DNA of 24,719 nucleotides from the IMG/VR virus record IMGVR_UViG_3300042459_000794, positions 1 to 24,719 of that record; one strand, given 5' to 3'. This DNA comes from a virus. Positions 6,317 to 19,725 of the stretch are shown here, piece by piece. Every line of letters begins with the position of its first letter. Position 1 is the first letter of the stretch. A program made the translations under genes and the position numbers. Below the pieces are notes generated by a model that made no database searches, was not told where the DNA came from, and saw nothing but the letters and a program-made list of their open reading frames with translations.

Positions 6317-7214
6317 AGACTTCTACCCACTAGTAGCAAGCACCGCCCAGAAGCTCAGGAACGCGAAACTGACATCGTCAGAGTGGGCTATCTGGAGCTA
6401 CCTCGTCGAAGTCGATCCCTGGGGCAATCGCTATCACGAAGTTGAAACTTTGGAAGTCATGGAAAAATGCAAAGTTTCCAAGGCCACATATTACCGAGCG
6501 ATCGCCAAGTTTCAAGATAACGAGATCTTTGATTTTCAAGATAAAGGCTTTAATGTCCGAAATTTACAGGGCGCACACAGTCTCAAAAATGAGAAAACTG
6601 TCTCAGAAATGAGACAACTTTCTCAAAATTGCGAGTCTCAAAATTGCGAAACCAGTCTCAATTTTGAGAAAACTGTCTCAGAAATGAGACAACTTTCTCA
6701 AAATTGCGAAAATCGCGGCTCAAAAGCCGCTCCTAGCAAGGATTCTGAAACGCCTAAGATCTCTTTAGATCAATTAGATCATTTAGATCGATCTGATCAG
6801 GACGATTTTTTAAATTTTGAAAACACAGAAGCAGCGCTTTGCGCTGATAATTTACCGCCAACAAAATCGACAACTCAAAAAATTGACGATTCTAGCCTTG
6901 ATCAAAACGATGGATTAGCAAACATGCCTACAGATAGCGCAACTCCCGTTGATGGCGATCTTTTCCGCGGCCGCGTTGAAGATTTTATTTTGAAATCTCT
7001 GAAATTTTCACCCCGCGATCGCACTGCCTACTTTTCCCGATTTACTCCCGAAAATTGGCAGGATTGGGAAGCCAAATATAAAGCAACACTGACTCAACCT
7101 TCTTCGATGTATAAGACTTTTACACCTGAAAAAGTTGAGGTAGCAGATCCAAATTCTCCTGAAGTTCAAAAAGCGATCGCTGAAATCCGCGAATCATTGA
7201 GGATAAAAAAATGA
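6297..7214 (+). CDS. Winged-helix replication initiator-like protein (lambda O-like organisation)
   Basis: A 305-aa protein. Residues about 25-90 (KLTSSEWAIWSYLVEVDPWG, then CKVSKATYYRAIAKFQ) look like the N-terminal winged-helix DNA-binding domain of cyanobacterial plasmid and phage replication initiators. Residues 95-140 contain a duplicated peptide (EKTVSEMRQLSQNCE twice). At the DNA level it is an array of seven 14-base palindromes, the likely origin. A low-complexity acidic linker follows (about 145-225), then a C-terminal domain with RDRTAYFSRFTPENWQDWE. In lambda O and related proteins the C-terminus recruits the helicase; none is encoded here, so the host DnaB is presumed. The ATG at 6297 is used because the upstream frame runs through the previous gene. 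It is coupled to 7211 by ATGA. Confidence 0.7.
   Translation: MKSKLPKDFYPLVASTAQKLRNAKLTSSEWAIWSYLVEVDPWGNRYHEVETLEVMEKCKVSKATYYRAIAKFQDNEIFDFQDKGFNVRNLQGAHSLKNEKTVSEMRQLSQNCESQNCETSLNFEKTVSEMRQLSQNCENRGSKAAPSKDSETPKISLDQLDHLDRSDQDDFLNFENTEAALCADNLPPTKSTTQKIDDSSLDQNDGLANMPTDSATPVDGDLFRGRVEDFILKSLKFSPRDRTAYFSRFTPENWQDWEAKYKATLTQPSSMYKTFTPEKVEVADPNSPEVQKAIAEIRESLRIKK
6581..6824. other. Predicted replication origin: seven iterons plus AT-rich segment
   Basis: Seven copies of TCTCA-N4-TGAGA (or TGCGA) start at 6581, 6601, 6621, 6636, 6656, 6676 and 6696. Five of the six steps are exactly 20 bases and one is 15. Next come five AGATC/CGATC words spaced about 9-10 bases (6758-6798) and an AT-rich run (6804-6824). 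Binding iterons followed by an AT-rich unwinding segment, all inside the initiator gene, is the lambda ori plan. The 20-base spacing would place sites on nearly the same DNA face. Confidence 0.7.
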
Positions 7215-7663
7215 CGCAGCTTGATATCTTCTCACTTCCCGCTCAAAGTTCTAGTAGTGAATTACCTAAGGCAATTATCCCAATCGATCCAAAAATTGAG
7301 GCTGCTTTAAATTCTCTACTAGAACTCAAAGAATTAGCACTCTCTCAATTCCAAATCGGTTCTAGGATTATCGCTGGAGATCTGCATGGTGCGATCGCAT
7401 CTATAGATGGTGAACTGTGCCAAGCGCTATTTGATGGCGAATCCAAAGCTAGAACTGTATTTCTAGATTCTCTTGAGCTAGAAAGCAAACCAATAAGCGA
7501 AGGTTGCATTGTCAAATCCGACTTGTTCTTCAAAGGCAAGACAGCCAAAGTTATCAATTTATATCAAATTGGCGCAGTGACAATGGCAACTGTTGAGCTT
7601 GAACTTCATAAATCATTAGTTAATTTTCCCTGCGGTATTAGCGCTTTGGAGGTTGTGACATGA
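7211..7663 (+). CDS. SH3/KOW-like small protein (150 aa)
   Basis: It starts MTQLDIFSLPAQSSSSELPK. Two segments (FQIGSRIIAGDLHGAIASID and GCIVKSDLFFKGKTAKVINL) look like small five-strand barrel units of the SH3/KOW type. They resemble the N-terminus of the next protein (FQIGDRIKDKEGFIGVIKSA). The gene is ATGA-coupled to both neighbours (7211 and 7660). The two adjacent genes may have been one protein with several barrels, or may act as a pair. Two copies of the over-represented word encode SSSS and SLLEL here (7248, 7316). No enzymatic motif is visible. Confidence 0.6.
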   Translation: MTQLDIFSLPAQSSSSELPKAIIPIDPKIEAALNSLLELKELALSQFQIGSRIIAGDLHGAIASIDGELCQALFDGESKARTVFLDSLELESKPISEGCIVKSDLFFKGKTAKVINLYQIGAVTMATVELELHKSLVNFPCGISALEVVT

Positions 7664-8910
7664 TTGCACTTGCTGGACATGGCAAAGATCCTCGACTTGT
7701 TCAACCTTCCATAATTCCAGAGTTTCAAATAGGCGATCGCATTAAAGACAAAGAAGGTTTTATCGGTGTAATCAAATCTGCCAGCGATCGCTGTATCACG
7801 GCTTCAAATAAAGATCAAATCAAATCTTACAACCTGACGCAATTTAAAAATATTAGGTTATTCATAGAATGTTTACCCACCTCGGAGCCTTTGAAGGAAT
7901 CGGAGCATTCTCCGAAGCTTGTCGCCGTACAGGCAAAATCCAAACGATCGCCTATATCGACATCGACAAACACGCGCAGACAGTCTTCAAAGACAATTTC
8001 CCAAACGTCCCAATCTATTCCGACATCAGAGACTACCACCCCTGCAAAGGAATCGATCTCTACACAGGAGGATTTCCCTGTACAGGAACCTCTAACGCTG
8101 GGAACAAGCAAGGACTTAATCACCCAGAATCAGCATTGTGGTTTGAATTTCTCAGAATCATTAATGAAGGACAGCCCAAATTTGTCGTCATTGAAAATCC
8201 CGCCTCAGTCCTTAATAACGGACTACGAACAATACTTGGGGGACTCCGAATGGCTGGATATAGTTGGGACAATCCGCAAATCTTACAAGCTGCTTTCTTT
8301 GGAAGCCCCCAAAAAAGAGAAAGATTGTTTGTCATTGCCTACCCTAACGACAGGACAAGGATCAGGACGGAATGCTGGTCAAACCAGATTGGAGAAAGCA
8401 TTAAAAGACAAAGGTTTTCGAGCCGATACCCAAGCTTTGAGCGCCGAGGGGATGAGCGTGCTATTCGGGTTCCCCCCGAATTGGGCAAAGTCGATATGTT
8501 CCAACCCAAAGGAATTGCAAACAGAAACGATGCTAGGCGACTGTTTGGCAGAACAATCGATCTCAACTGTGCCTCAGTCGTCATCAAACGAGTCCTCTAT
8601 CTTGACCGAGTTTTCAGTAAATAACATCGATGCAAAATTGCAATTTCTACTAGAACAACGCGATCGCCTAATCAATTCTGGAGCAAGCCCCCAAGGTGTT
8701 TGGCTATCAGTTGGGCAAGTCTATAAAAAAGATTTTCGCCAAGTTGTTTGGAAATCTGCCAAAAATCATGAATGGTTAGGTGGTAACAAGTCTCGCTATA
8801 TCGGTAAAGAAAATAGTGATGAACATCTATCTGCGATCGCCCAGCACAAAGCAGGGCAAGAATTAAGAAAAGTTGAGAGAGAACTTAAAAAGTTGCAGGT
8901 GAAATCATGA
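7660..8910 (+). CDS. 416-aa protein containing a complete gene in another frame
   Basis: N-terminal residues 20-70 are an SH3/KOW-like unit. Residues 90-150 are Ser/Thr-rich and look disordered. Residues 183-280 contain LPTLTTGQGSGRNAGQTRLE and AEGMSVLFGFPPNWAKS, which resemble the C-terminal part of cytosine-C5 methyltransferases. Residues 322-416 (KLQFLLEQRDRLINSGASPQ, then KSRYIGKENSDEHLSAIAQH) look like a conserved cyanobacterial helical domain. The frame stays open for 1251 bases although 756 of them are occupied by the methyltransferase at 7869 in another frame. It is ATGA-linked to the genes on both sides, strong evidence that it is translated. Possible role: accessory or target-recognition partner of the methyltransferase. 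Function is not known. Confidence 0.75.
   Translation: MIALAGHGKDPRLVQPSIIPEFQIGDRIKDKEGFIGVIKSASDRCITASNKDQIKSYNLTQFKNIRLFIECLPTSEPLKESEHSPKLVAVQAKSKRSPISTSTNTRRQSSKTISQTSQSIPTSETTTPAKESISTQEDFPVQEPLTLGTSKDLITQNQHCGLNFSESLMKDSPNLSSLKIPPQSLITDYEQYLGDSEWLDIVGTIRKSYKLLSLEAPKKEKDCLSLPTLTTGQGSGRNAGQTRLEKALKDKGFRADTQALSAEGMSVLFGFPPNWAKSICSNPKELQTETMLGDCLAEQSISTVPQSSSNESSILTEFSVNNIDAKLQFLLEQRDRLINSGASPQGVWLSVGQVYKKDFRQVVWKSAKNHEWLGGNKSRYIGKENSDEHLSAIAQHKAGQELRKVERELKKLQVKS
7869..8624 (+). CDS. Cytosine-C5 DNA methyltransferase, nested gene
   Basis: A 251-aa C5 methyltransferase, complete from N-terminal SAM motif to C-terminus. It shows FEGIGAFSEACRR (motif I, residues 8-20), GGFPC (67-71, catalytic Cys71), VVIENP (106-111), GSPQKRERLFVIA (145-157), a C-terminal RYPSFERRGDERAIRVPPEL, and NDARRLFGRTID where the family has RRLxxLGNxxxP; here the usual LGN is FGR. 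It would transfer a methyl group from SAM to C5 of cytosine; the target site is unknown. It lies entirely within the 7660-8910 gene in a different frame. It has no obvious ribosome site and may use translational coupling. It is small but full length for phage orphan methyltransferases. Confidence 0.88.
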   Translation: MFTHLGAFEGIGAFSEACRRTGKIQTIAYIDIDKHAQTVFKDNFPNVPIYSDIRDYHPCKGIDLYTGGFPCTGTSNAGNKQGLNHPESALWFEFLRIINEGQPKFVVIENPASVLNNGLRTILGGLRMAGYSWDNPQILQAAFFGSPQKRERLFVIAYPNDRTRIRTECWSNQIGESIKRQRFSSRYPSFERRGDERAIRVPPELGKVDMFQPKGIANRNDARRLFGRTIDLNCASVVIKRVLYLDRVFSK

Positions 8911-9119
8911 GTAATCCAATTCTTATAGGCAGTGCATTGACTACGGAATTCTACAGAGGCTATAGACTTGAGTTGTACGAAACGGATACAGGATGGGCGG
9001 TTAGAGTCCTTGACCGCCTTAATAGGCTTCAATTCATTACCTACTCTCACGATTTTGCAGTAGCCAAGTCACGGATTGATGATGAACTGGAAGGAACGAC
9101 TGACGAAATCCCATTCTAA
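8907..9119 (+). CDS. Small hypothetical protein (70 aa)
   Basis: ATGA-coupled to the preceding gene. It starts MSNPILIGSALTTEFYRGYR and has a compact beta-rich pattern (YRLELYETDTGWAVRVLDRL, FITYSHDFAVAKSRIDDEL). It resembles small single-domain proteins common in cyanobacterial plasmids, which often have no known role. No catalytic residues stand out. The acidic C-terminus (DDELEGTTDEIPF) is reminiscent of single-strand-binding protein tails, but this is weak evidence. Confidence 0.6.
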   Translation: MSNPILIGSALTTEFYRGYRLELYETDTGWAVRVLDRLNRLQFITYSHDFAVAKSRIDDELEGTTDEIPF

Positions 9120-19215: not shown

Positions 19216-19725
19216 ATGTTGACAATCAGCGATCGCAGCTACCTTACAGCACCTCACAGAAAACGATTATCAAAATCAATGCTGTACTTGATACGATCGC
19301 GTAAGTTACACCGTACTAACTCGCTACTCGATTACGGCTGTGGTCATGGCTTTGAGTGGCAGTACTTGCGATCGCTTGGTTACGATGCACATGGTTACGA
19401 TCCACATTACTTTCCCGAATATCACCACAGGCAATTTGATGTAGTGACATTACTGCATGTCCTAAATGTTATTCCTAGGTTTAGCGATCGCATTGCAGTT
19501 TTGCGAGATGCATACGCTAGATGTAAATCGGTTCTAGTAGTAGCATCGCGATCGCCCCAGCCATGTGTCGGAACTGACTATCTAGATGGCAAGGTGACTC
19601 GATACGGCTGGTTTAATAAATGCTATTCGGACTTAGAACTAAAGCTATTCTGTGCGCGATCGCTGGGCGTGGATGAGGGCAGGTTTAGGCAGATTGGGCA
19701 AAAAGCTTTTGTACTTCACCGCTGA
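19216..19725 (+). CDS. SAM methyltransferase, phosphorothioation-associated-like (169 aa)
   Basis: A class I SAM-dependent methyltransferase: LLDYGCGHG (residues 37-45) is the SAM-binding motif, YDPHY (61-65) follows the second strand, and DVVTLLHVLNVIP (75-87) is a recognisable motif IV region. The phrases DYGCG, YDP and HVLNVI match the N-terminal domain of the methyltransferase family linked to DNA phosphorothioation (dnd) islands; those full proteins are several hundred residues longer. No dnd genes are present here. The substrate is unknown; DNA, RNA or a small molecule is possible. It uses its own promoter region after copy C. Confidence 0.75.
   Translation: MLTISDRSYLTAPHRKRLSKSMLYLIRSRKLHRTNSLLDYGCGHGFEWQYLRSLGYDAHGYDPHYFPEYHHRQFDVVTLLHVLNVIPRFSDRIAVLRDAYARCKSVLVVASRSPQPCVGTDYLDGKVTRYGWFNKCYSDLELKLFCARSLGVDEGRFRQIGQKAFVLHR

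Follow-up and report, generated by a model that had tools for sequence, protein, structure and literature searches.

A C5 methyltransferase gene of a cyanobacterial virus nested inside the gene of its probable recognition partner

The window, a 24,719-base virus record analysed over its full length, carries a C5 cytosine methyltransferase (MTase) gene that lies wholly inside a longer gene read in another frame. It is close to certain that both frames are coding and that each is under selection at the protein level, and the frame that dominates changes at the borders of the enzyme's domains. The explanation that we favor, and consider probable, is that the two genes encode a two-polypeptide C5 methyltransferase of the M.EcoHK31I/M.AquI kind, in which the nested frame would specify the catalytic subunit and the enclosing, outer frame the recognition subunit. 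This enzymatic partnership between the two products is suggested by their sequences.

All features of this locus are on the plus strand. The outer open reading frame (ORF) occupies positions 7660-8910 and encodes the 416-residue proposed recognition subunit, and the MTase ORF, at 7869-8624, encodes the 251 residues of a C5 cytosine MTase catalytic (large) domain. Relative to the MTase, the outer ORF is read in the +1 frame, its codon positions 1, 2, and 3 corresponding to MTase positions 2 and 3 and to position 1 of the next MTase codon. It is linked by ATGA overlaps to both its neighbors: the upstream gene (7211-7663, 150 residues), whose stop overlaps the outer start at 7660-7663 and for which Pfam and PHROG searches returned no significant match, and the downstream gene (8907-9119, 70 residues), whose start overlaps the outer stop. 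These coordinates and couplings agree with those given in a sequence-only reading of the window. A Shine-Dalgarno-like GGAGG (7648-7652) is found 7 bases 5' of the outer ATG; a weak TTAGG is all that precedes the MTase start. Across the MTase, the window has no stop in the +1 frame and 17 in the +2 frame. The sequence-only reading had held that such an opening would hardly arise by chance. When the window MTase was shuffled among synonymous codons, +1 stops averaged 2.9 and the probability of finding none was 0.0125, a value that is not decisive for a single locus, and relatives were therefore needed.

The MTase matches PF00145 with E=4.8e-36 over profile positions 7-167 of 324 and contains motifs I, IV, VI, and VIII of this family, with PC, ENP, and RxR as invariants. 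The motif I region (HLGAFEGIGAF, 7878-7910) falls on invariant or nearly invariant columns of alignments A1 and A4, motif IV (GGFPCTGTS, 8067-8093) harbors the catalytic Cys and the invariant P70 and C71, motif VI (ENP, 8193-8201) the invariant E109 and P111, and motif VIII (SPQKRERLFVIA, 8304-8339) was located in the MTase alignments. Motif X (ARRLFGRTIDLNCASVVIKRVL, 8532-8597), where substitution counts point to the MTase frame again, is at the protein end, as the match to phrog_363 reaches profile position 314 of 327 and the structural model (pLDDT 85, pTM 0.85) has a C-terminal helix at residues 232-250. The model aligns with M.HhaI over 228 residues (Z=24.8, rmsd 2.6; M.HhaI residues 11-326), and thus has the M.HhaI large domain from end to end, including the motif X helix at M.HhaI residue 326, while the small domain of about 100 residues is absent. 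M.HhaI shares this large-domain fold but, like other canonical single-chain C5 MTases, has its large and small domains in one frame. Neither a recognition domain nor motif IX was found in the MTase chain by Pfam, the model, or codon phase. The gene had been described as complete, with every main motif. As the model lacks the small domain and the other frame governs evolution from motif VIII to motif X, this description cannot be kept: the MTase frame holds motifs I-VIII and X but neither the recognition region nor motif IX.

A tblastn search of plasmids with the outer protein retrieved 23 cyanobacterial records. Used as a single query against genome contigs and phage records, the outer protein gave no match, whereas an MTase profile succeeded. 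In the first set of loci, which comprised plasmid records, L006 and L007, the partly deleted L010, and the window, the outer match is always at offset +1, the open +1 frame spans 291 to 1015 codons, and no +1 stop occurs within the MTase except in L014. Because these loci had been found via the outer frame, the search was redone using nothing but the MTase alignment. This recovered 62 full-length relatives of the cyanobacterial type, every one of which scores at least 40 bits for the +1 core; in 25 the +1 frame is free of stops, and the +1 run overlapping the MTase measures 134-320 codons. The median number of +1 stops per 100 codons is 0.8 in the relatives and 7.4 in 37 unrelated C5 MTases of the same scan, controls that are poorer in G+C (0.36 vs. 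0.43) and in which somewhat more stops are thus expected. In these controls, the longest +1 run is 69 codons and the conserved core is absent. It is these comparisons, rather than the window itself, that uphold the argument against chance. The nearest genome relative of the window is from Pseudanabaena (L026), at 62% in the MTase.

Two layouts were distinguished. In the extended layout (33 loci under a strict rule, by which some loci scored as nested are almost extended), the outer ORF encloses the MTase, while in the nested layout the +1 ORF lies inside the MTase. The latter also occurs in Bacillota, Methanophagales, Rhodobacteraceae, and phages. In the MTase tree the layouts are clustered, yet several switches are apparent. 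The outer ORF has a Shine-Dalgarno-like start at 25 of the 33 extended loci, and at all 33 the outer frame is open across the MTase and beyond both its ends, so that at these loci the stops or frameshifts named beforehand as grounds for abandoning the nested-gene proposal were not encountered. A contig of a metagenome-assembled genome (MAG) labelled Flavobacterium (L052) also has a cyanobacterial-type overlapping gene and is probably mis-binned.

Codon-position patterns among homologues, which had been suggested as a check, revealed that both frames are selected and that the phase switches along the gene. Between the window and L006, changes at MTase positions 1/2/3 number 14/13/29 in 7875-8157, 8/0/3 in 8212-8487, and 1/0/12 in 8488-8621. 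Past the MTase stop, in the outer C-terminal domain (8626-8907) that is coding in the outer frame only, they number 15/4/0 in the MTase phase and thus fall mostly on outer third positions. By phase, the core thus belongs to the outer frame and motif X to the MTase, and beyond the MTase the outer frame takes over once more. The same was observed in 24 disjoint pairs of loci, 28 of the 85 loci being omitted where a simple motif pattern failed. From motif VIII to the outer GFPxW, the ratio of changes at MTase positions 1 and 3 is 91:23 in the extended and 101:46 in the nested layout, compared with 232:374 and 188:363 in motifs I-VIII and 69:109 and 102:211 in the motif X part. This reversal is seen in both layouts, with Fisher p-values from 2e-16 to 3e-12 that are nominal, as the locus pairs share ancestry. 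In pairs more than 50% identical, changes 5' of the MTase are distributed 49:41:85 over outer positions 1, 2, and 3, an excess at third positions that accompanies the aligned outer N-terminal segment (residues 22-66, GDRIKDKEGFIGVIKS..., 7723-7857). Protein-level conservation of the outer frame is thus found upstream of, inside, and downstream of the MTase, which provides the relatives that had been sought for its two ends.

Constraint on synonymous sites peaks at MTase residues 106-135 and 151-210, coinciding with outer blocks, and reaches z=17.5 at residues 121-135; the baseline z is inflated by relatedness, and it is the peaks that carry the weight. In one such block, outer EQYLGDSEWLDI over MTase GLRTILGGLRMAGY (8224-8259), the third bases of the MTase codons are almost fixed. 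In the MTase string GLRAxLGGLRM, third bases are kept (GCA, CTT, GGA, CTC, xGA, ATG), yielding outer EQ.L.DSEW. Motifs I-VIII and X evolve in the MTase frame and the VIII-to-X stretch in the outer frame, with purifying selection on both, as in an overlapping gene pair. The idea that a match is a mere shadow of MTase conservation was weighed for every outer-frame match and rejected for the core, since changes there fall on outer position 3 and leave positions 1 and 2 untouched.

The outer core (LSLPTLTTGQGSGRNAGQTRLE..LSAEGMSVLFGFPPNW, 8329-8490), which we propose to be the recognition region and motif IX, is conserved exactly at the site of the missing small domain of the MTase, between motifs VIII and X. 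With hhalign, LPTLTT...LSAEGMSVLFGFPPNW was aligned to +1 ORFs of phages and bacteria (pattern LPTPxAxD...LNPxFVEWLMGFPxGWT) with E=7e-9, and those ORFs match the C-terminal part of single-chain MTases with E=2.7e-7. In the latter alignment, LNPxFxEWMMGFPxGW falls on RKLTPRECxRLQGFPD (motif IX) and GNSV on motif X. Direct comparison of the cyanobacterial outer core with canonical motif IX gave the same register, as a weak match (probability 14.5, E=4e-4). A wider profile match (E=1.3e-19) spans sequence shared with MTase motifs IV-VIII and is not relied on, as the other frame may account for some of it. The profile comparisons back the early impression that LPTLTTG and GFPPNW are reminiscent of the C-terminal region of C5 MTases. 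The small domain makes all the specific contacts to DNA in C5 MTases of solved structure (PMC3404938), and the split found here coincides with the border of this domain.

In the proposed enzyme, AdoMet binding and the catalytic Cys would reside on the large domain, which has motifs I-VIII and X and no small domain, while the missing small-domain part, with target recognition and motif IX, would come from a separate protein, the outer core being carried on a longer chain with its own N- and C-terminal domains. The two polypeptides would pair to form an active, sequence-specific methylase of this cyanobacterial virus, and the extra outer parts might add DNA binding or other targeting. The enzyme probably protects or marks the DNA of the virus, which most likely modifies its own DNA with it. 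Of the earlier suggestion that the two frames are overprinted partners, selection on both is observed, as is their joint conservation across loci; from the arrangement we infer that the two proteins pair physically and methylate DNA, that the outer core recognizes the target, and what the biological role is.

Both frames could also be coding with the outer one specifying an unrelated overprinted protein, for instance a DNA-binding or regulatory phage protein without a role in methylation, which we regard as improbable. Consistent with such a protein, profile searches found no Pfam or NCBIfam family that covers it, and outer proteins carry variable extra domains, the longest ORF, that of L004, having 1015 codons. 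Neither the outer nor the phage +1 profiles matched any sequence in the PDB, and the model of the outer protein is poor (pLDDT 55, pTM 0.30) and thus does not provide fold backing for a small domain. In alignments, a pattern like that of the outer N-terminal segment is present in L002, L004, L011, and L012, and the C-terminal domain appears at other loci as a KKLKxGT...YPRV module. In the close relative L010, MTase residues 51-229 and the outer core have been replaced by other sequence (L010:1055-1909), while the outer start and C-terminal domain are kept in one open frame, which may reflect either a separate function of the outer ends or a gene in decay. Against an unrelated protein, the core is conserved precisely where the MTase lacks its small domain, it is missing from no full-length relative, and little else is present in the shortest +1 ORFs, which lie nested within MTases from other phyla. 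The outer ORFs of L004 and L012 include a stretch that we take to be ASCH-domain-like (KALTLHQPWASLVGKYKHYETRG), and that of L004 matches phrog_3193.

Programmed frameshifting, in which a +1 shift after motifs I-VIII would give a longer MTase with the outer core and C-terminal domain, appears very unlikely. The outer core does begin right after motif VIII (8329-8340), and a shift would yield the order I-VIII, recognition region, IX. However, the outer frame has its own start and Shine-Dalgarno-like site, its conserved region 5' of the MTase would be absent from any shift product, and motif X is retained in the MTase frame, which implies that the unshifted product is also selected. In Mycobacterium phage Ochi17 (L023:1492-2251), the MTase is broken after the first motifs and VII-X are in the +1 frame, which is a case of frameshift or recoding. 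The view that codon usage in the MTase merely leaves the outer frame open, with no gene behind it, can be dismissed almost entirely, since, although the shuffling probability in the window is not extreme, control MTases have many +1 stops and neither the phase reversal nor conservation beyond the MTase can stem from MTase selection; the controls and the reversal likewise rule out a chance open frame.

Two-polypeptide C5 MTases are already known, as are +1-frame families labelled DNA methyltransferase in PHROG. The beta ORF of M.EcoHK31I lies inside alpha in another frame. The larger polypeptide of M.EcoHK31I (YGGCCR) has motifs I-VIII and X and the second has IX (PMC3404938), and the window's catalytic polypeptide resembles it in having I-VIII and X. 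The recognition domain of M.EcoHK31I was reported in the large subunit (PMC3404938), whereas here, in a comparison by published description, the recognition region seems to be on the second ORF. A further difference is that in the window and 32 other loci the second ORF surrounds the catalytic one and contributes further domains at both termini. Agmenellum quadruplicatum, the source of M.AquI, is presumably Picosynechococcus PCC 7002. M.AquI (CYCGRG) is made of two polypeptides split after motif VIII (PMC3404938), with IX and X both on the second subunit. The M.AquI type was rejected for the window, where X is in the catalytic frame and the outer frame varies freely at X.

Among phages, phrog_1008, phrog_10223, and phrog_16143 ('DNA methyltransferase') are in the +1 frame as in the window. 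Matches to phrog_1008 include gene 56 of Paenibacillus phage Shelly ('g55 internal gene') and the second 'DNA methylase' of SheaKeira, Vorrps, and Vash, and the Nostoc outer ORF L002 matches this family with E=2.6e-6. The +1 ORFs of Mycobacterium, Streptomyces, and Paenibacillus phages are shorter than the outer ORF, and are nested in alpha or overlap only its end. In actinophages, alpha ends at VIII and the +1 ORF holds IX and X, whereas the window has X in the catalytic frame; this M.AquI-like organization, with alpha stopping after VIII, was seen in L018, L019, L022, and L089 (actinophages and a Selenomonadales MAG). In Streptococcus phage MM1 (L020:1643-2068) and in L101-L103, the ORF annotated as 'C5 methyltransferase beta subunit' does not reach the motif IX region, where frame 0 supplies an IX and an X of its own, so that the beta label looks doubtful.

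Compared with known split MTases, what differs is the geometry, with the catalytic gene inside the recognition gene, and the large extra outer domains. Among the papers searched there was no earlier description of the nesting in cyanobacteria, nor of the enclosure of a catalytic by a recognition gene, its cyanobacterial spread, the phase reversal at domain borders, or the alternating RefSeq annotation. We lean slightly toward the view that these loci represent a class of split C5 methylases that is widespread and has so far escaped notice, with the catalytic gene inside that of its recognition subunit, the cyanobacterial recognition frame having grown into a large multi-domain targeting protein; proteins so interlocked would be inseparable by recombination and would have to co-evolve. 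Long same-strand nested genes of prokaryotes are usually doubted, and the one described here is conserved across cyanobacterial orders, is carried by cyanobacterial plasmids and viruses, and has related forms in phages, Bacillota, and archaea. Such a long overlap can persist because the two frames take turns, one being free wherever the other is constrained.

The loci also expose a systematic annotation error, since RefSeq retains one frame or the other: the MTase alone in L002, L012, and L013, the long outer ORF in L004 (1010 residues) and L017, and the full pair at none of the loci examined. L013 is the member on plasmid pAQ5 of Picosynechococcus sp. PCC 7002, a laboratory strain that is easy to work with, which makes the idea directly testable. 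Its outer-frame sequence includes LLLPTLTTGQGTTR, VLQSPLVNSAHPTDGK, ASGCLVPFTEAR, and TYPIIQGER, and the companion protein has the accession WP_012308518.1. Elsewhere in the window, an ORF amid structural phage genes (11470-12603) has a SWIM-like zinc-finger string (CTCPDF...PCKHM), and a small ORF (19216-19725) contains a class I methyltransferase-like string (LLDYGCGHGFEWQYL).
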